A stretch of DNA of 64,000 bases, from the NCBI RefSeq assembly GCF_022818495.1, contig NZ_CP089291.1, positions 1,847,001 to 1,911,000 of the forward strand, given 5' to 3'. Below are positions 7,295 to 44,579 of this stretch, piece by piece (within the stretch, counting starts at the first letter, position 1; each line of letters starts with the position of its first letter). The notes beneath the pieces were generated by a model. The model did no database searches and was not told the origin of the DNA. It saw only the letters and a list, made by a program, of their open reading frames with translations. This stretch comes from Fodinisporobacter ferrooxydans. GTDB lineage: Bacteria > Bacillota > Bacilli > Tumebacillales > MYW30-H2. Both the position numbers and the translations under genes were made by a program.

Positions 7295-7387
7295 TTCATA
7301 TGTTGAATCTTCTGCACAAAACCTCATATTTTTCGACACAAGAAAAAAAGAAAACGAGATAACTTGATAGAATAGGTGATTTTTGCT

Positions 7388-9235
7388 ATGAGCTTCTTAA
7401 AGAAAGAACAGCAACAAGATTCAACAGTGAAAACTTTGACAATTCGAATGAATTTATTGTTTTTTCTGTTGTTTTTGATGTTATCAGCTTTGGTTGTTCG
7501 TCTAAGCTTTATACAGCTTACGAAAGGAGAATCCTATCGGACACTTGCTGCCGAGAGCCATTTGGATCAGATGCCCATCCCGGCGCCACGGGGATTTATC
7601 TATGATAGAAACAAAACATTGCTTGTATCGGATACGCCTTCCTTTACTTTGATGTACAGCGGAACCTTTCATAAAACGGATCCGAAGTTTCAAACATTAG
7701 TAAACAAGATCCATCAGTTGATTCCGCAAATTTCAACAACGGAAATTGAAAAACGCATGACAGCAAATCCGTGGGTGAGTGTAAGTCACCGCATTGCCAC
7801 AGGTCTTACTGATCAACAGGTATCCTTTATTCGGGAACACCAGGATCAATTTCCAGGCTGTAATATTATTATTGAGCCTGTCAGGAAGTATATATATGGA
7901 GATTTGGCAGGACATGTGATTGGCTATTTAAACTCTATACCGGCAAGCCAAGTGGGAAATTATAAGAAACTCGGCTATCAAGTGGATGATAAAGTGGGTC
8001 TTGCTGGCGTGGAAATGCAGTATGAATCGTATTTGCATTGACAAAACGGCAAATTGACAGTAGAAGTCGACAATCAGAATCACATCATCAAAAATTTAGG
8101 TTTAGATCCCCCGCCAACGAAAGGTGATGATCTGGTTCTCAACATTGATGCAGGTTTGCAACAAACGATGCAAGATGCAATAAGTACTCAGGTGTTGGCA
8201 TTGCAAAAAATGGGGAAACCTGCAAAAAATGCGGCTGCGGTTGCGATGAATCTAAATACCGGCGAAGTATATGCCATGGCCAGCTATCCAAGCTTCAATC
8301 CCCAATGGTTTATTGATGGAATTGGTAAACACATTAACCAATGGCAGCAATCGCAAAACAACTGGACGATTCAAGGACTCTTCCCACCAGGATCAACCGA
8401 AAAACCGTTAACGGCAATGGCAGCTTTGCAAGACGGCGTCATTAACGCTTCCACCATCTTTTTTGATCCTGGATATTTTATGTGGGATGGGCAGCGATTT
8501 AACAACTGGTGGCTGTAAGGGAATGGAAAAGTAAATCTGACACGAGCGCTCACCCTTTCCAATGACACCTATTTTTATAATGTTGCTTACCAGTTTGCAA
8601 AAGGTATGGATGGACCGACTGCACATAAACACGTCATGGATCGATTACGTTATTACCAACAAGCATTCGGTCTCGGCGTTTCAAAGACGGGAACAGGTGT
8701 TGATCTTCCATACGAAGCTTCCGGTTTTATGTTTGATAATGGAAATCCTGGGGAGCTGCTATTTGCGGCGATTGGTCAGGAGGAAGAATTTACGCCAATT
8801 TCTCTTATGCAATACGTAAGTACGATCGCCAATGGCGGAAAACGGATAGAACCGCATATTGTAAAAGAAATCGTGGATCCGAATGGACATATTGTAAAAA
8901 CATTCCCACCGAAAGTATTAAATACGGTGCCTGTTTCACAAGCAAACATCAAGCTCGTACAACAAGGGATGGAACAAGTGGTCGCTTCCACAGAAGGAAC
9001 GGCACATTCGATATTCGTAGGTGCGAAATATACGGTTGCCGCCAAAACAGGTACAGCCGAAGTCGGAACAACACCAAACAATAATGATACCTCTGTCTTT
9101 ATTGGTTATGCACCGGTCGATCATCCGCAGATTGCCATTGCTGTCGTCATTCCAAGCGGTGGAGAAAGCTGGACAGGAATCGGTCCAGTCTCTAGAAAAA
9201 TTATGGATTATTATTTTGCGCACCCGATCAAATAA
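7388..9235 (+). pseudogene. Penicillin-binding protein 2-like transpeptidase with two in-frame stops
   Basis: One continuous frame of about 615 codons encodes a class B PBP: N-terminal membrane anchor (about 20-42), dimerisation domain with APRGFIYDRN, and a transpeptidase domain with the SxxK motif STEK in PPGSTEKP, SND in TLSNDTYFY and KTG in AAKTGTAE. It is interrupted by TGA at 8039-8041 and TAA at 8516-8518 without any frame change; everything between and after is well preserved. The second stop separates STEK from the SND and KTG motifs, so no fragment is catalytically complete. The start ATG at 7388 has AGGTGA 8 nt upstream; GTG 7376 is an alternative. Either a recent pseudogene or a readthrough case. 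Confidence 0.75.
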
Positions 9236-10597: not shown

Positions 10598-12304
10598 TTA
10601 CATTTTAAATTGATTGACTAATTTTTGTAACGCATCTGCCATTGTAGATAAAGAGTCGGAAGATGTTGCAATTTCTTCCATCGTAGCCAATTGTTCCTCT
10701 GTAGAGGCTGATATGGTTTGTGCCATTGAAGAAGTTACTTCGGACATTTTCTCAATATGCTCCATCGCTAGTACGATTCCTTCTGTTCCTACCGACATTT
10801 CTTTTGTCGCAGCAGTGACTTCTTGAATTTGCGTGGATACTTCATCTATGGATTTCCGAATTTTTTCAAATGAAACTTTTGCTAAATTCACTACATCTAT
10901 TCCATGCTCGACTTCTTTTGTTCCCGCATCCATTGCTTGAACAGCCTTATTGATTCCGTCTTGAATACTGGCGATATAATTTGTAATTTGTTTCGCCGAA
11001 TTCGAGGATTCTTCTGCAAGTTTGTGAACTTCGTCGGCCACAACGGCGAATCCTCGTCCATGTTCACCAGCTCTGGCAGCCTCAATTGCCGCATTTAAAG
11101 CGAGCAAATTTGTCTGATTTGCAATCCCGGAAATAACTTCTACGATTTTTCCGATACTTTGTGCATGTTTTCCTAGTTCTTGTATTGAATCAGCAGCCTC
11201 TAATACAGTTTTGTTGATAAAATGCATTTGATCGATAGTATTATGAATCGCTTGATTACCTTGTATCGATGCTTCGGATGCTTTTACAGAGGATTCAGAA
11301 ACAAATTGTGCGTTGGCGGTAATTGACTGAAAACTAGAAGCCATTTCATGAATCGTGTGTGATGCCTTTTCTATATCCATAGACTGCTGTTGGGTTCCAA
11401 TTGTAACTTCTTGAACAGAAGCTGCAATCTGTTCAGTCGCCCGACTTGTTTGTTCGGTACGATCCATTAACTCTTGTGAAGAAGCAGCAACTTGTGTAGA
11501 ACTGACTTCCACTTGTTGGATTACGTCACGAAGATTACGAATCAACCGATTAAAAGAATTCGCAAGATTACCGATTTCATCGCGATTTTTGATGGTAATT
11601 TCATTTATGGTCAAGTTTCCGGAAGCAAGTTGTTCAATAGATGACGTTAGAGCCTTGATAGGTTTTGAAACCATCCGTGTAATAAAATACCCGAGAAATA
11701 CAGCAAATCCTAGAGCGACAAGACTCGAAATGATCGTAATTAAAATGATTCTATTGACCATTAACTTCGTTAATTGTATGTCTTCATCTGCATGTTTTTG
11801 GGCTAGTGTTTGAACTGAATTCGCTTTCGAGATCATTTGACGGTCAATTGGGTCGATTTCTTTGATGAAATAATGTGTGGCTTGGCTTTTATCATTTTTG
11901 TATAACAATAAAAGTTTATCCATTTTAGTCATGTTTTCTTGATTCAGTTTTTTGATTTGGGTCAGAGCATCAATTTGTTCAAGAGAACCGTTTGCATTTT
12001 CTAATTGAATGGTTTTGATAGTTTGATCGACTATTTTGTTTATGGCTTTATGCGCCTGATCGTAGTTAATTAAGTCAGTTTCATTTGAATTTAATAAATA
12101 ACTTTGTAAACTATTTGATTGTTCTTCAGTTTTTTCCATAATATCTTTGGCGTATTCACGAACTTGAATTTTTCCATTTAAGAGAAAAGAATAATCTTGT
12201 TCAATGGTTTTTGTTGAATACATCGATAATCCACCAATTATACCAAGAGTCAATGCTATACATAGGAATCCGAACGTTAATTTTTTCCCAATACTTAACT
12301 GCAT
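10598..12304 (-). CDS. Methyl-accepting chemotaxis protein
   Basis: 568 residues in the standard order: signal-anchor span (about 10-30), a four-helix sensor region (about 40-180), second span (about 190-212), HAMP linker (about 213-265) and a long cytoplasmic signalling domain with the hairpin tip [20 protein letters not shown]. It transmits an external signal to CheA/CheW. The ligand cannot be read from sequence. The start has AAAGGAAGTG upstream. Its promoter carries the same TCATAA direct repeats as the copper two-component locus 28 kb away, suggesting that this receptor is made under the same stress. Confidence 0.9.
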
Positions 12305-12388: not shown

Positions 12389-12419
12389 ATAATAATGGAT
12401 ACTTATGAAAAACTTATGT
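12389..12419 (-). promoter_or_regulatory. Repeat-type promoter of the chemotaxis receptor (site 8)
   Basis: Read on the minus strand: ACATAA (12419-12414), N5, TCATAA (12408-12403), N8, TATTAT as -10 (12394-12389). The 11-bp repeat phase and the 8-bp gap to the -10 are identical to the other seven sites listed in this window. Confidence 0.65.
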
Positions 12420-15171: not shown

Positions 15172-15313
15172 GATGCTAAACGCACTGTCTTAGGACGGAC
15201 TGATGACACAGCCCTGAACTTTCGGGAACTACGGCTACGAGAAATCGACTGCCGACTACCACGAAAGAATCCCACTCCGACAGGGGCTTGCGGCTTTAGC
15301 CGTGGGAGTGTCA
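15172..15313 (+). ncRNA. Probable omega RNA (reRNA) scaffold of the tnpB element
   Basis: Between the tnpB stop and the element's right end lies about 140 nt of GC-rich, hairpin-prone sequence ending in the right-end stem. In IS605-family elements this zone, with the 3' flank as guide, forms the guide RNA of TnpB. The guide here would be the reverse complement side of the lgt 3' end (15314 onward). Assigned by position; the fold was not computed. Confidence 0.55.
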
Positions 15314-16105
15314 AACTGTATTGCTTTTCAAAGATACATTCCTGTCATTCTTTTTTAATACCAACAAAGCAGCTATGCTGATGAAAACAATAACTGCGCT
15401 GGTCCATTGGGCAGCCGTCCAATAGAATAGATACCGAGGACTATCTCCACGGAGGAACTCAAGACCAAACCTCGCGAGTGCATATAGGATATTGTAAAGC
15501 AAGAACATCGTGCCAGTAGGCAGCTTTTTTCTTAATAGTGCAAACAGGATTGCAAAAATGACAAAATCGATCTGGCCTTCCCATACTTCCGCAGGCCAGA
15601 GCGGTTTTGAGCCGTACGTATCATAAGCAAATGTGCCAGGCGGATATACAAGTCCATAGCCCTTTCCTGTCGGCGAACCAAACGCATCCCCATTGAGCAG
15701 ACAAGCAATGCGCCCGATTCCTTGCCCCAATATAATGGATGGTGCCAAAAGATCCGCAACTTTCCAGAAAGATAGACCTTTTCTTTTGCAATACCAGAAA
15801 CCAGTCAGGATTCCGCCTACGATGCCCCCTTGAATCGATAACCCGCCATTCCAAAATGCGATCATTTCCAGCGGGTGTGCCAAATAATAGTTGGGCTCAA
15901 AGAAAAACACTTGCCAAATCCGCGCTCCGATGACTGCTCCGATTACAGAGGTATATACCAAAGGTACGATATGCTCTTCATATTGTTTCATCGTATAACG
16001 GGCTAATGTGATCCCAACTTGCGTCCCCAGGACGATCGCCAACAAGACCACCAAACCGTATGTGTGTACTGCAAAATTGCCGATATGAAACAAAATAGGT
16101 AACAA
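15311..16105 (-). CDS. lgt: Prolipoprotein diacylglyceryl transferase
   Basis: About 264 residues with seven spans. It carries the Lgt signature GQGIGRIACLLNGDAFGSPT (catalytic-site Arg and Asn), the NGGLSIQGGIVGG segment and the late R in EFLRGDSPRYL. Lgt transfers diacylglycerol from phosphatidylglycerol to the lipobox Cys of lipoproteins; several lipobox proteins occur in this window (19141, 25268, 63414). TTG at 16105 has AAGGAG at 8-nt spacing; GTG at 16114 is an alternative. The C-terminus ends at the tnpB element boundary, so its last residues may differ from the ancestral protein. Confidence 0.9.
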   Translation of the reverse strand: MLPILFHIGNFAVHTYGLVVLLAIVLGTQVGITLARYTMKQYEEHIVPLVYTSVIGAVIGARIWQVFFFEPNYYLAHPLEMIAFWNGGLSIQGGIVGGILTGFWYCKRKGLSFWKVADLLAPSIILGQGIGRIACLLNGDAFGSPTGKGYGLVYPPGTFAYDTYGSKPLWPAEVWEGQIDFVIFAILFALLRKKLPTGTMFLLYNILYALARFGLEFLRGDSPRYLFYWTAAQWTSAVIVFISIAALLVLKKNDRNVSLKSNTV

Positions 16106-16191
16106 TCCATTCACTCCTTATCTTTTTTGTTTCCAATGGTATCAAATTGATGTGAAGAAAGTATGAAGTCGTGCAATCCATGCATGTCTCC

Positions 16192-18646: not shown

Positions 18647-18699
18647 TCATAACTTTCTCATAAGTACTACATCGTCCCTTCACTTTTTCCGGCTAACCT
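18647..18699 (+). promoter_or_regulatory. Repeat-type promoter of the zinc-ribbon gene (site 1)
   Basis: Four hexamers in 11-bp phase, TCATAA (18647), TCATAA (18658), ACATCG (18669) and TCACTT (18680), then an 8-bp gap and TAACCT as -10 (18694-18699). Site 2 at 29955-30007 has the same four-repeat layout (TCATAA, TCATAA, ACACTA, TCATTT, N8, TATCCT). Confidence 0.6.
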
Positions 18700-18727: not shown

Positions 18728-18892
18728 ATGGAAGAATATATTTGCACCACATGTAGCAAGGAGTGGGAAATGTTACCCTCAGGATGCTTGTTTGAAGAAA
18801 ATTGGATATGGAAAAAGCGAACGGATCATCCGGATCATTGCCCAAATTGTCAAACCGAAATGCTTGAGGAATGGGAATTGTTCGAAATTTAA
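18728..18892 (+). CDS. 54-residue zinc-ribbon protein
   Basis: Starts at ATG 18728 after a strong GGGAGGTGG. Two Cys pairs, CTTC near the start and CPNC near residue 40, form a rubredoxin/zinc-ribbon knuckle; the rest is acidic and Trp-rich. Proteins of this size with two CxxC knuckles bind Zn or Fe. It lies under a repeat-type promoter of the putative copper two-component regulon, which suggests a metal-handling or stress role. Another frame over the same bases is longer but lacks a ribosome binding site and sensible composition. Confidence 0.65.
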   Translation: MEEYICTTCSKEWEMLPSGCLFEENWIWKKRTDHPDHCPNCQTEMLEEWELFEI

Positions 18893-18901
18893 TTCTTAGT
18901 C

Positions 18902-29539: not shown

Positions 29540-29923
29540 TTACTTGCTGTTTGGTACTTGCGGTGTTTGCGGCGTCCAATTCCCCATCATGCCGCCTGAA
29601 CCGTTCTGCCCATAATTCCCGCCCATCATTTGGCCGTTGGAGCCGTTCATCATGGATTGCATCGCAGCATACATAGCTTTGAATTGTTGATCGGTAATGT
29701 TCGGATGCATTTGTTTCATATACGGCAACATTTGTTCAAATGACGGAAACGCATTCGTTGCTCCCGGACCGGTTGGAGCATTTTGTGTAACGGGCTCTGG
29801 ACTGAACTGCTGCATCGCATTGTTCTGAATAGAATCGTTCGATGGGGGTGTTTCTGCATATGCTGCTGTTCCAAGTCCCGTAATCAATCCTGCCGCAACC
29901 AAGCCAATCATTAATTTTTTCAT
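29540..29923 (-). CDS. Exported Met-rich protein
   Basis: 127 residues: signal peptide (cleavage after AAYA, about residue 23), a middle domain with a helical segment, then a Met/Gly/Asn-rich C-terminus (SMMNGSNGQMMGGNYGQ). Met-rich exported proteins often bind Cu(I). AAGGAGGCG precedes the ATG. The promoter carries four 11-bp-phased repeats (site 2), linking it to the copper two-component regulon. No family recognised. Confidence 0.7.
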   Translation of the reverse strand: MKKLMIGLVAAGLITGLGTAAYAETPPSNDSIQNNAMQQFSPEPVTQNAPTGPGATNAFPSFEQMLPYMKQMHPNITDQQFKAMYAAMQSMMNGSNGQMMGGNYGQNGSGGMMGNWTPQTPQVPNSK

Positions 29924-29954: not shown

Positions 29955-30007
29955 AGGATAGCTGGAAAAAATGAAGAAATAGTGTGGAGATTATGAGGAA
30001 GTTATGA
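29955..30007 (-). promoter_or_regulatory. Repeat-type promoter of the Met-rich exported protein (site 2)
   Basis: On the minus strand TCATAA (30007-30002), TCATAA (29996-29991), ACACTA (29985-29980), TCATTT (29974-29969), N8, TATCCT as -10 (29960-29955). Spacing is identical to site 1. Confidence 0.7.
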
Positions 30008-32753: not shown

Positions 32754-32805
32754 TCATAATTGTTCAGAAGTTCTACTCAAGATCTTCACAAGTTGAGGGT
32801 ATGAT
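32754..32805 (+). promoter_or_regulatory. Repeat-type promoter of the His-rich membrane operon (site 3)
   Basis: TCATAA (32754), TCAGAA (32764), ACTCAA (32775), TCACAA (32786-32791), N8, TATGAT as -10 (32800-32805). The two hexamers nearest the -10 keep the exact 11-bp phase seen at the other sites. Confidence 0.6.
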
Positions 32806-32903
32806 TAAAAACAACGAGATAAAAGGTAATGGATTATATTTTACCGTTTTGGATTTTTTATAGCAAAAAGTAATGGATGGCAAAGACAGGGGAGGAAAAA
32901 ACA

Positions 32904-33329
32904 ATGGAACGAGGCAATGCAATTCATGGCCATGCAATGGACCAACACGGAAAAACAAAAAAGGGGAAAGGGATTCGAGGCTCGATTTTGTCTATCTTAT
33001 TTGCATTTATCGCATCCTCCCACCATTGGCTGCACACATTGTTGATCGCTTTTGGCCTCACCAGCTTGGGTGCGAGTTTGATATCGATGCCGCCAGCGAT
33101 TCGAACCGGATTCATGATCCTTTCTCTCATCATCTCTTTTTGGATGCTATTCGTCGCATGGAGAAAACGAATCACCAACCGGCCGGCAGCATGGGTATAT
33201 TTGATTTCTTCTTTGATTTCCATCATTGTCGTCGTTACATCGTTTTCACAGTTTACAGGAACACCTTCATCGGTCCCGATGTCTCCGAATGCGACAGTGG
33301 ATCATGCGAGCCATCATATGGGCAATTAA
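32904..33329 (+). CDS. His-rich three-span membrane protein
   Basis: 141 residues from ATG 32904, chosen because GGGGAGG lies 7 nt upstream (an ATG at 32877 has none). N-terminal His-containing basic segment, three hydrophobic spans (about 27-55, 60-82, 95-115) and a C-terminal tail ending DHASHHMGN. The family is not recognised. It leads a three-gene operon with the DUF2933-like and ICMT-like genes under a copper-regulon promoter, so a metal-related membrane role is likely. Confidence 0.65.
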   Translation: MERGNAIHGHAMDQHGKTKKGKGIRGSILSILFAFIASSHHWLHTLLIAFGLTSLGASLISMPPAIRTGFMILSLIISFWMLFVAWRKRITNRPAAWVYLISSLISIIVVVTSFSQFTGTPSSVPMSPNATVDHASHHMGN

Positions 33330-33382
33330 CGGAGTGAGTCAGGGATCGGGCAACCATTTTCTACAGAAATGAGGAGATTGTC

Positions 33383-38508: not shown

Positions 38509-40161
38509 TTATTCAGGCTGATTGCCAGTTTTGCCTCCGATTGAATAGGGAGTTGAAATTCCTTTGTACGTCAGCATCGTATCCATCCCTGCCGCTGCAT
38601 GATGAAGATCATGGCAATGAATCATCCATAACCCTGGATTGTCAGCTTCAAACGCTACATCGTACGTTTCACCAGGTAATACATTGACTGTGTCGAGATA
38701 AATGGGGCTTCCTGCAAGCGGATTTCCATTTCGTGAAAGTACCTGGAATGTATGACCGTGCAGGTGCATGGGATGAATGAAATTGCTTTGATTGGTAAAT
38801 GTGATTTTTACTGTATCTCCTTTTTTTACTTGAAGGGTAGGGATATTTGGAAACACTTTTCCATTAATGGTGTACACCATTTGGTTCTTGCCTTCAAAGT
38901 ATCCCATGCCTGCACCTAGATTCATATCGTATGTTTTCGTGAAATTTGACTCGGGTGTAAATTTTCCCTTTTGTTTTTCACCATATTTTGAGAAATCAAA
39001 CCACGCATACTCTTTCGGATTCCCTGTTACATTACTTGGCTGGCCTTGTCCAAATGTTGCGGAAATCATTTTGTTTTCATCATTCGAAGGATCCGCGTCC
39101 ACCAATTTTACGCTACTGCGCTGTGGCATTTGAAAACGGATGTCATACCGTTGGCCAGCACCGATCGGCAATAACTGTTTTTCAATTGGGTTGCCATTTG
39201 TCAGATCATGGCCGTCAAGGGAAATCACTTGAAACGTAACGCCAAGTATAGTAAGAAGATGTGTCATATTACCCGCATTTACCAGGCGCAATCTTACGAG
39301 ATCGCCCGGTTTTGCATCAAAATGCAACCCTTCACTTGTACCATTTGCCGTGAATACATCATACATTGACATCATGTCAGTGAGTGCACTCATTTGATTT
39401 TTGGTCGGCATCATGGATGAGCCATTCCTGTCCGTGGTTCCCATGTTCATGCCGCCCATCGATTGACTTCCCGCAGCTGGATTCCTTCCTGAAGGATTCT
39501 TCATACCCGACATGTTCATGCTGCCCATGCCTTCATTCGTGCTCCCGGTTGTATTCCATTCATGAAGCGCAACAACATAGTCTCTATCAAATTTGACAGT
39601 AGGTGTTTTAGGATCCACAACGAGCACACCATACAATCCGCGCCCTACTTCATTTGAACTGTCCTGATGGGAATGATACCAATAGGTGCCTGGTTCAGAA
39701 GCGATAAATGAGTACGTGTATGTGCCATTTGGCGGAACAGCATTTTGGGTGACACCGGCAATTCCATCTTCCGCACCGGGTACGTTTACACCATGCCAGT
39801 GAATGGTTACTCCGGCGGGTAGATGATTTGTAAGATGTACGACCATTCGATCCCCTTGTGTCACGCGCAATTCTGGACCGGGAGATGTACCGTTATATGT
39901 CCAGGCATCCATTGTCTTTCCATTTCCCAAATTTAATTTTGCTACTTTGGCTGTCAGATTAAATGTTTTGGCAGGTGCGTACGAATTGGTTTCCACCAAG
40001 TTCGTAATGGGTGTTGTACCTGGCCCTTTGGCACCCATATTAAGCTGAGGGGGCATTTTGGAACTTTGGTATTGCCAAAAGGCATATCCCCCACCGAAAA
40101 GCAGAAGTACAAGCACAAATGAAAGTGTATATACGAAAATCCTCTTTGCATTTTTAGTCAT
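38509..40161 (-). CDS. Multicopper oxidase 1 (three-domain, Met-rich insert)
   Basis: 550 residues: N-terminal membrane anchor (about 7-28), cupredoxin domains with copper ligands in HWHG, YWYHSH, HPMHLHGH and HCHDLHHAAAGM (type 1 axial Met). A Met/Gly-rich insert (SMNMSGMKN, SMGGMNMG) lies in the middle domain, as in CueO-type oxidases where it binds Cu(I). It likely oxidises Cu(I) or metal substrates outside the membrane. Divergent from the two-component genes. AGAAAGGCGG precedes the ATG. Confidence 0.93.
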   Translation of the reverse strand: MTKNAKRIFVYTLSFVLVLLLFGGGYAFWQYQSSKMPPQLNMGAKGPGTTPITNLVETNSYAPAKTFNLTAKVAKLNLGNGKTMDAWTYNGTSPGPELRVTQGDRMVVHLTNHLPAGVTIHWHGVNVPGAEDGIAGVTQNAVPPNGTYTYSFIASEPGTYWYHSHQDSSNEVGRGLYGVLVVDPKTPTVKFDRDYVVALHEWNTTGSTNEGMGSMNMSGMKNPSGRNPAAGSQSMGGMNMGTTDRNGSSMMPTKNQMSALTDMMSMYDVFTANGTSEGLHFDAKPGDLVRLRLVNAGNMTHLLTILGVTFQVISLDGHDLTNGNPIEKQLLPIGAGQRYDIRFQMPQRSSVKLVDADPSNDENKMISATFGQGQPSNVTGNPKEYAWFDFSKYGEKQKGKFTPESNFTKTYDMNLGAGMGYFEGKNQMVYTINGKVFPNIPTLQVKKGDTVKITFTNQSNFIHPMHLHGHTFQVLSRNGNPLAGSPIYLDTVNVLPGETYDVAFEADNPGLWMIHCHDLHHAAAGMDTMLTYKGISTPYSIGGKTGNQPE

Positions 40162-40302: not shown

Positions 40303-40333
40303 TCATAAGTTCTTCACAATTTCTTGTTACGAT
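40303..40333 (+). promoter_or_regulatory. Repeat-type promoter of the two-component operon (site 4)
   Basis: TCATAA (40303), N5, TCACAA (40314-40319), N8, TACGAT as -10 (40328-40333), about 105 bp before the response-regulator start. It has the same spacing as the other seven sites and suggests autoregulation. Confidence 0.65.
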
Positions 40334-40440: not shown

Positions 40441-41133
40441 ATGAAATCCATTTTAATCGTGGATGATGAAGAGAAAATTCGTGAAGTCATCGTATCCTAT
40501 TTGAATCATGAACGATATCAAGTGTTTCAAGCCGAATCGGGTACGGAAGCACTGCGTCAATTTAAAGAACGCAACATCGATCTGGTAATTTTGGATTTAA
40601 TGCTGCCGGATGTATCGGGTGAGGAGGTATGCCAAAAAATTCGGAATCTTTCACCCGTTCCGATTCTCATGCTCACCGCAAAAGTTGCTGAAAAAGATCG
40701 GGTCAACGGATTGGCAATCGGTGCGGATGACTATGTGGTAAAACCGTTTAGCCCGCGTGAATTGGTCGCTCGTGTTAAGGCGCTATTGCGTCGCTCTGCC
40801 GAGAATGAATTGCTTGCGGAACGAATCTCTTTCCAAGAAGGCCAATTGATGATTGACTCGGTACGCAACGAAGTATATAAAAACGGTGAGGCAATCAATG
40901 TAACACCAATCGAGTATAAGCTTCTTGTGACATTTGCAAGGTATCCGGGGCGAACATTTCATCGGAATGAATTGTTGGAGACCGCTCTTGGCCATGAATA
41001 TGAGGGGGATCTTCGGGTCATCGACCAGCATATTAAAAATTTGCGCCACAAAATTGAGGACAATCCAAAACAACCAGTGTATTTGATCACGGTTTTTGGC
41101 TTTGGTTATAAATTTCAGGGAGGGGACGTATGA
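40441..41133 (+). CDS. OmpR-family response regulator
   Basis: 230 residues. Receiver domain with the acidic pair in IVDDEEK, phospho-Asp in LVILDLMLPD and Lys in DDYVVKPFSPRE; winged-helix DNA-binding domain (about 130-227) with IEYKLLVTFARYPGR and VIDQHIKNLRHKI. It lies between two multicopper oxidases and is the best candidate for binding the 11-bp-phased direct repeats found at eight promoters here, since OmpR-type regulators bind such repeats. GGGAGGATTCGAC precedes the ATG. Confidence 0.93.
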   Translation: MKSILIVDDEEKIREVIVSYLNHERYQVFQAESGTEALRQFKERNIDLVILDLMLPDVSGEEVCQKIRNLSPVPILMLTAKVAEKDRVNGLAIGADDYVVKPFSPRELVARVKALLRRSAENELLAERISFQEGQLMIDSVRNEVYKNGEAINVTPIEYKLLVTFARYPGRTFHRNELLETALGHEYEGDLRVIDQHIKNLRHKIEDNPKQPVYLITVFGFGYKFQGGDV

Positions 41134-42227
41134 TTTCAAAATTGCGTACCCGTCTCTTTCTGGCGCTTGTCGGGATTACTTTCATAATTGTTCTCATCGC
41201 GAGTCTCCTAATCATTTGGCAAACCAATCGGCATTTTATGATTTATCAAATGCAAATGCCGTCATTCCACAAATACATCGTGCCGCTTGACTTGCATTTG
41301 AAAACAGCATTGATTCAGTCGATCCTGTTGACGATGATCGGGGCTATGGTACTCGCAATCGCAGTCAGTTTCTATATGGCAAAACGCATGACCAGACCGA
41401 TTGAAGATATGACACGCGTTGCCAAACGAATCGGTCACGGCGATTTGCATTCCCGTGTCGCGATACAAGGGAATGATGAATTGGCGAAATTGGCAACCAC
41501 GCTGAATCAGCTTGCGTCCCAACTACAAACCCAAGAGGAATTAAGAAGGAATTTAACAGCGGATGTGGCGCATGAATTGCGGACACCCCTTGCCACTCTG
41601 AAAGGCCACATGGAAGCGTTCGAGGATCGGATATGGGAACCAACGCCGGAACGAATCCATTCCTGCTATGAGGAAATTGAACGATTGATTGGTTTGGTAA
41701 GCGATTTGGAGCAGTTGTCATTTATTGAGTCTCCCGAGTTGGTGCTGGATTTGCAAGTGCACAGCCTGAGTGATATCATCCTTCAATGTGTTGATAGGAT
41801 CCATGTGGAATGTGTTCAAAAAGGGATTGAATGGAACGTTCGTGTAGAGGAATCGATCGAAGTTACGATCGATCGGGAGCGCATCATACAGGTTTTTACA
41901 AATATACTGGCAAACGCGCTGAAGTATACCCCGCCTGGTGGAAGCATCCGGATTCAAGTGCAAGAGGAAGAAGATACGATCGTCATTCAAATCGCAGATA
42001 CCGGCATCGGAATCCCTTCCGAAGATATTCCTTATGTATTTGAACGGTTTTATCGAGTGGATAAATCGAGGAGTCAGCAATATCGAGGAGCCGGAATCGG
42101 GTTAGCCATCTGCAAGAAGCTGGTAGAGCTGCATAATGGTTCGATTTGGATCACAAGTGAAGTTGGAAGGGGAACGCATGTGTTTATTCGTTTGCTGAAA
42201 TACAAAAAAAAAATAAAAATAACTTGA
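41130..42227 (+). CDS. Sensor histidine kinase of the copper-island two-component system
   Basis: 365 residues, ATGA overlap with the regulator. Two spans (about 7-28 and 60-82) flank a very short extracytoplasmic loop (about 30 residues with several Met and His: NRHFMIYQMQMPSFHKY), then HAMP, the H-box ADVAHELRTPLATL, and the ATPase domain with N, G1 (DTGIGIP) and G2 (GAGIGLA) boxes. The short His/Met-rich loop fits a copper or other soft-metal sensor, an inference. Confidence 0.92.
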   Translation: MISKLRTRLFLALVGITFIIVLIASLLIIWQTNRHFMIYQMQMPSFHKYIVPLDLHLKTALIQSILLTMIGAMVLAIAVSFYMAKRMTRPIEDMTRVAKRIGHGDLHSRVAIQGNDELAKLATTLNQLASQLQTQEELRRNLTADVAHELRTPLATLKGHMEAFEDRIWEPTPERIHSCYEEIERLIGLVSDLEQLSFIESPELVLDLQVHSLSDIILQCVDRIHVECVQKGIEWNVRVEESIEVTIDRERIIQVFTNILANALKYTPPGGSIRIQVQEEEDTIVIQIADTGIGIPSEDIPYVFERFYRVDKSRSQQYRGAGIGLAICKKLVELHNGSIWITSEVGRGTHVFIRLLKYKKKIKIT

Positions 42228-42242
42228 GAATCGCTACATTCC

Positions 42243-42273
42243 TCATAAGTTCTACATAACTGTCTGGTATCCT
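42243..42273 (+). promoter_or_regulatory. Repeat-type promoter of multicopper oxidase 2 (site 5)
   Basis: TCATAA (42243), N5, ACATAA (42254-42259), N8, TATCCT as -10 (42268-42273). The oxidase start is 40 nt further on. Confidence 0.75.
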
Positions 42274-43667: not shown

Positions 43668-43698
43668 ACATAAGATTTTCATAATTCGGGATTATTAT
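43668..43698 (+). promoter_or_regulatory. Repeat-type promoter of the SHOCT protein (site 6)
   Basis: ACATAA (43668), N5, TCATAA (43679-43684), N8, TATTAT as -10 (43693-43698); a weaker TCAACG lies one phase upstream. Confidence 0.7.
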
Positions 43699-44142: not shown

Positions 44143-44173
44143 TCATCAGTTCTTCATACATCTATTGTACAAT
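44143..44173 (+). promoter_or_regulatory. Repeat-type promoter of a hypothetical gene (site 7)
   Basis: TCATCA (44143), N5, TCATAC (44154-44159), N8, TACAAT as -10 (44168-44173). Confidence 0.6.
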
Positions 44174-44240
44174 AAAAGAAAATAATCAAAAGAATCCATG
44201 TGGAAAAGTGACCGACATATTCGGAAATGAGGCGATTGAT

Positions 44241-44579
44241 ATGGCTGTTGCCGAAGGGATTCAAAGCATAGCAAGATTTAATTATTACAATTATAACAAC
44301 TTTAACAAACATACCGATCTTTTTACAGTTCTTACTTCGAATACTCCTGAAAAACAATTGCCATCATCAGATACAACATTGACCAAACCAAATTTGAAAA
44401 TATCGTTCCAAACGTATACTCCACGATTGGTTCAACATACGTATCAGCTTTCTATGGATAAGAATCAAAATATGAACCAAGCATATGCCAACGGCACACA
44501 AACTGCGTCGATCCAACAAGTAGGATTGAATCCCTCTGTATCAAAACTGCTTGGTAATAGCATTGATGTATATGCATAA
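44241..44579 (+). CDS. Asn/Gln-rich hypothetical protein of the repeat-type regulon
   Basis: 112 residues from ATG 44241 (GAGGCG 5 nt upstream; a GTG at 44208 would add 11 residues but has no ribosome binding site). No signal peptide or span. It is rich in Asn, Tyr, Thr and Gln (FNYYNYNNFNKH; YQLSMDKNQNMNQAY). Not recognised. Its promoter and position downstream of the SHOCT gene tie it to the copper island. Confidence 0.5.
   Translation: MAVAEGIQSIARFNYYNYNNFNKHTDLFTVLTSNTPEKQLPSSDTTLTKPNLKISFQTYTPRLVQHTYQLSMDKNQNMNQAYANGTQTASIQQVGLNPSVSKLLGNSIDVYA

Follow-up and report, generated by a model that had tools for sequence, protein, structure and literature searches.

The window analysed here, a stretch of 64,000 nucleotides, belongs to the complete genome of Fodinisporobacter ferrooxydans (one contig, 4,856,687 bases). 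Strain MYW30-H2 is motile and peritrichously flagellated and was isolated from a polymetallic mine (PMC11123200). The locus under study consists of a chemoreceptor gene and the promoter in front of it:

10598-12304, minus strand: methyl-accepting chemotaxis protein, 568 aa (4HB_MCP_1 sensor, HAMP, MCPsignal)
12389-12419, minus strand: direct-repeat promoter of the receptor, ACATAA-N5-TCATAA-N8-TATTAT (exact string ACATAAGTTTTTCATAAGTATCCATTATTAT)

The open reading frame is intact and its domain make-up is ordinary. The signalling domain (PF00015, E-value 1.7e-47), the HAMP domain (PF00672, 3.2e-14) and an outer 4HB sensor (PF12729, 8.6e-08) with hydrophobic helices on both sides place the product among the methyl-accepting chemotaxis proteins. 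The original prediction had announced a full repeat-type promoter ahead of this gene, 28 kb away from the two-component genes and with no other chemotaxis gene nearby. The exact repeat promoter was found at these positions and the distance is as claimed; in the part of the window's open reading frames that was scanned, no further chemotaxis gene was seen. The minus strand at 12389-12419 reads TCTACATAAGTTTTTCATAAGTATCCATTATTATG and is followed by the ribosome-binding site AAAGGAAGTG and the receptor ATG, which lies 85 bp past the -10 box TATTAT. If TATTAT is taken as -12 to -7, the repeats fall at about -37 to -21. No other sigma-70-like promoter was found on the minus strand between 12290 and 12700. 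The 456 bp upstream of the receptor occur only once in the genome, and the idea that a repeated element had brought in the promoter was rejected on this ground.

Eight further sites of the same class were detected in the window:

16136-16166, minus strand: ahead of the gene for an Lgt-like enzyme (15311-16114); detected with the matrix
18647-18699, plus strand: four-repeat form, ahead of a small Cys-pair protein (18729-18893)
29955-30007, minus strand: four-repeat form, ahead of a Met-rich secreted protein (29540-29923)
32775-32805, plus strand: upstream of a small membrane ORF (start 32873 or 32905); matrix
40303-40333, plus strand: upstream of the response regulator, with probable autoregulation
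42243-42273, plus strand: upstream of a multicopper oxidase; pattern and matrix
43668-43698, plus strand: upstream of the SHOCT protein, the closest match to the receptor site; pattern
44143-44173, plus strand: upstream of ORF 44208-44579; matrix

All nine window sites have a repeat period of 11 bp (seven with two repeats and two with four), and in each the last repeat is followed after exactly 8 nt by a -10 box, with no recognisable -35 box. The -10 boxes mostly match at 4-5 of 6 positions and the best -35 boxes at 3 of 6 at most. In promoters of PhoB/OmpR-type activators, repeats replace the -35 box at the activator position. The window sites, with 11-bp direct repeats in place of the -35 box and a fixed distance to the -10 box, are of this type; the exact 8-nt spacing, the -10 boxes with mostly 4-5 matching positions and the missing -35 box are what activator-dependent promoters would show. 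The receptor and SHOCT promoters are almost the same in their repeats and around the -10 box (CTACATAAG[T/A]TTTTCATAA-N6-ATTATTATGA): they differ in the linker, but agree almost completely in the repeats and in a stretch that starts shortly ahead of the -10 box and ends two bases past it. The receptor promoter shares its site with the regulator, oxidase and SHOCT promoters of the proposed copper two-component regulon of this genome. Of the other genes with such sites, the Lgt-like one (15311-16114) encodes a prolipoprotein diacylglyceryl transferase-like protein, and the small membrane ORF (32873-33337), whose site at 32775 is a good match to the matrix, gave no Pfam match.

The site is rare by several measures. 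The window contains five copies of WCATAA-N5-WCATAA where 0.10 would be expected, a number that was never reached in 100 shuffles. When N8 and TAnnnT are added, the 4.86-Mb genome as a whole has 4 exact matches, one each at the receptor and the multicopper oxidase and one at each of the two SHOCT gene copies; the backward control gives 1. Because testing the window with a pattern taken from it risks circularity, a weight matrix was trained solely on foreign sites, which lie around orthologous regulators, oxidases and a SHOCT gene in other genomes. With this matrix, whose independence is good but incomplete since its training sites were found via the window-derived pattern, the receptor site scored 26.5 against 21.7 for the best score in 25 Markov-resampled 64-kb sequences. 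It ranks fourth in the window, after the sites of the oxidase, the regulator and ORF 44208. In 398 genomes of the class, the bare pattern showed a modest excess (about 58 against about 44 for the backward control); there the exact pattern was dropped as a test for being too unspecific, and among the pattern-match loci that were read no other receptor lay downstream of such a site.

The genes from which the copper connection comes lie further along the window:

38509-40161, minus strand: second multicopper oxidase, divergent from the two-component operon
40441-41133, plus strand: OmpR/PhoB-type response regulator, the candidate activator
41130-42227, plus strand: sensor histidine kinase with a short outer loop
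42313-43509, plus strand: multicopper oxidase, 398 aa
43723-43950, plus strand: small membrane protein with a SHOCT domain, 75 aa

The regulator and the kinase form one operon adjoining the two multicopper oxidases, and the window also encodes two copper-type (CopA-type) P-ATPases. The outer loop of the kinase (NRHFMIYQMQMPSFHKY) contains several Met and His residues, and its short-loop orthologues mostly have an HF..Y core. Orthologous regulators in other families (about 55-63% identical) also have such sites nearby; at three of these loci the site lies just downstream of the kinase, as it does in the window. In other genera, exact matches precede genes for multicopper oxidases, for a SHOCT protein and for secreted proteins rich in Met. 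A near-identical second copper cluster with the same sites is present at 155000-187000 of the contig; it contains a regulator that is 99% identical, an oxidase, a SHOCT protein, a Met-rich protein and an Lgt-like gene.

A characterized site is available for comparison. In Corynebacterium glutamicum, the copper regulator CopR was shown by experimental mapping to bind TGAAGATTTnnTGAAGATTT (PMC3140484). The complement of TGAAGATTTnnTGAAGATTT is TCTTCA-N5-TCTTCA, with the same type of half-site and the same 11-bp period as the window sites, and 14 of 18 bases match between the CopR site and the regulator's own site at 40303-40333. By analogy, this likeness supports a copper role for the regulator. 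The site is not peculiar to one regulator, because similar sites lie near several other OmpR-type regulators of the genome: at 1,568,240, at 1,650,171 and, in a four-repeat form, near 1,925,406 and 164,320. Four-repeat sites at 1914259, 1923206 and 1928921 of the contig, which lie beside another two-component pair just past the right end of the window, precede, among others, genes for a peroxiredoxin and a trypsin-like protease.

About 20 loci in the complete genome match the signalling half of the receptor, and the repeat site is present at only one of them, 10598-12304. It is absent both from the closest paralogue (52%, at 448,256) and from a 4HB receptor that stands beside the duplicate copper cluster (188144-189838 of the contig). 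A search for relatives of the receptor in a collection of genome contigs and in 60 relatives yielded none above 52% identity, the 52% one being in the same genome, and the wiring therefore cannot be assessed by conservation. The sole CheA of the genome lies at 3,332,385, about 1.4 Mb away; since it is the only one, an induced receptor would feed the common pathway.

At the sequence level, the receptor's membership in the promoter class of the metal-stress genes is well supported. The favoured reading, given a probability of roughly two in three, is that the receptor belongs to the copper-type two-component regulon, is made mainly under copper or related stress and joins the single CheA array. 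Metal-inducible expression is likely, and the neighbouring multicopper oxidases and CopA-type ATPases point to copper as the inducer. The candidate regulator at 40441-41133 would be the most likely activator of the receptor, which may in turn alter behaviour under metal stress. In the proposed mechanism, this regulator, or its near-identical second copy, would bind the two head-to-tail half-sites, which lie 8 nt ahead of the -10 box and would take over the role of a -35 box, and would recruit housekeeping RNA polymerase. The partner kinase would respond to too much copper, or to a related condition of the envelope or the redox state, leading to synthesis of the receptor; the new receptor would then enter the existing array and change steering under metal stress. 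A further reading is put forward tentatively, at somewhat less than even odds: this would be a copper-inducible chemoreceptor in the Bacilli, a dedicated receptor switched on directly by the two-component system for copper detoxification, with a single regulator setting both fight and flight against the metal.

Control of the receptor by a paralogous OmpR-type regulator with overlapping site preference, such as the one at 1,925,406 / 164,320, appears rather unlikely; the trigger would then be envelope or oxidative stress and not copper. Regulators 44-54% identical are present in the genome, and similar repeats near those genes precede the peroxiredoxin and the trypsin-like protease. However, in the class at 1,925,406 and 164,320 four repeats precede the -10 box. 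The receptor site has two, as do those of the oxidase, the SHOCT gene and the regulator, and it most resembles the SHOCT site in the copper cluster. It is also conceivable, but improbable, that the site is a chance match and that the receptor is constitutive or expressed with the motility genes from another promoter. The modest enrichment of the bare degenerate pattern across the class leaves some room for chance, and sigma-D-type control probably exists in this genome because ACCGATAT at the flagellin gene resembles a sigma-D -10 box. Yet the matrix score, the position 85 bp before the start codon, the near identity to the SHOCT promoter and the location of the receptor in the same metal island all argue against coincidence, and no alternative sigma-70-like or sigma-D-like promoter rose above background. 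On this last point the scan of 20 receptor loci for sigma-D promoters, which gave background-level scores, is a weak test, as hardly any of the other receptors exceeded background. Finally, the regulator might bind the receptor promoter but repress it or have no effect. Architecture alone does not tell activation from repression, but the repeats occupy the place of the -35 box, where activators of the PhoB/OmpR type bind, and are arranged as at the oxidase promoter. This is the least probable of the alternatives, and very improbable in itself.

What the receptor would detect is a separate matter. The original prediction had suggested inducible taxis in relation to a metal or a redox condition, in either direction. 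Its first half, the wiring to the metal-stress promoter class, is well supported by sequence, spacing, the outside-trained matrix and comparative evidence; the second half, metal or redox taxis, is not. The sensor region contains three His and eight Met residues, numbers that fall inside the range of 14 related receptors or near it, and comparison with these showed no enrichment in His, Met or Cys, no Cys pattern and no metal-binding signature. Metal-ligand enrichment of the sensor was accordingly rejected. Copper or a redox signal as ligand, and taxis to a metal, are thus unsupported by the sequence, the His and Met content being ordinary and a Cys pattern absent. By analogy with AerB of Vibrio cholerae, a metal-regulated receptor can sense something else.

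AerB, which is under Zur and VerA, is linked to zinc starvation yet mediates energy taxis (PMC8248653). It is a chemoreceptor that is encoded on a genomic island and needs a metal-responsive regulator for its expression, as is predicted for the receptor described here, so that metal-dependent chemoreceptor expression is already known in principle. AerB is, however, a PAS-domain energy-taxis receptor of a Gram-negative bacterium, induced by zinc starvation and indirectly through an AraC-type activator, whereas the present case would involve metal excess, a predicted direct two-component site and a 4HB receptor in Bacilli. McpR of Caulobacter crescentus is another chemoreceptor tied to copper, but it is cytoplasmic and binds the metal through Cys75 and His99 (PMC10579534); the receptor studied here is membrane-bound, has no such signature and is linked to copper through its promoter, and it therefore falls outside the McpR type of copper-binding receptors. 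In Pseudomonas putida, copper resistance and chemotaxis are coupled as well, but through contact between the repressor CsoR and CheA and not through receptor transcription (PMC11978298). The CopRS system of C. glutamicum resembles the present one as a copper two-component system with an 11-bp direct repeat of TCTTCA half-sites and a multicopper oxidase target, and differs in that its site seems to be single in that genome and that no chemoreceptor is a target (PMC3140484). No receptor was found in a CopR/CusR regulon in the literature searched, and likewise no precedent for direct two-component wiring of a chemoreceptor in a copper regulon of Bacilli. For most chemoreceptor genes the ligands and the conditions of use are unknown; the sole metal-regulon receptor among about 20 offers a concrete condition for testing, and a case in which a single regulator may govern both detoxification and steering.

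Elsewhere in the window, at 7376-9235, the dimerisation and transpeptidase domains of a penicillin-binding protein lie in separate short open reading frames, and this gene looks broken.
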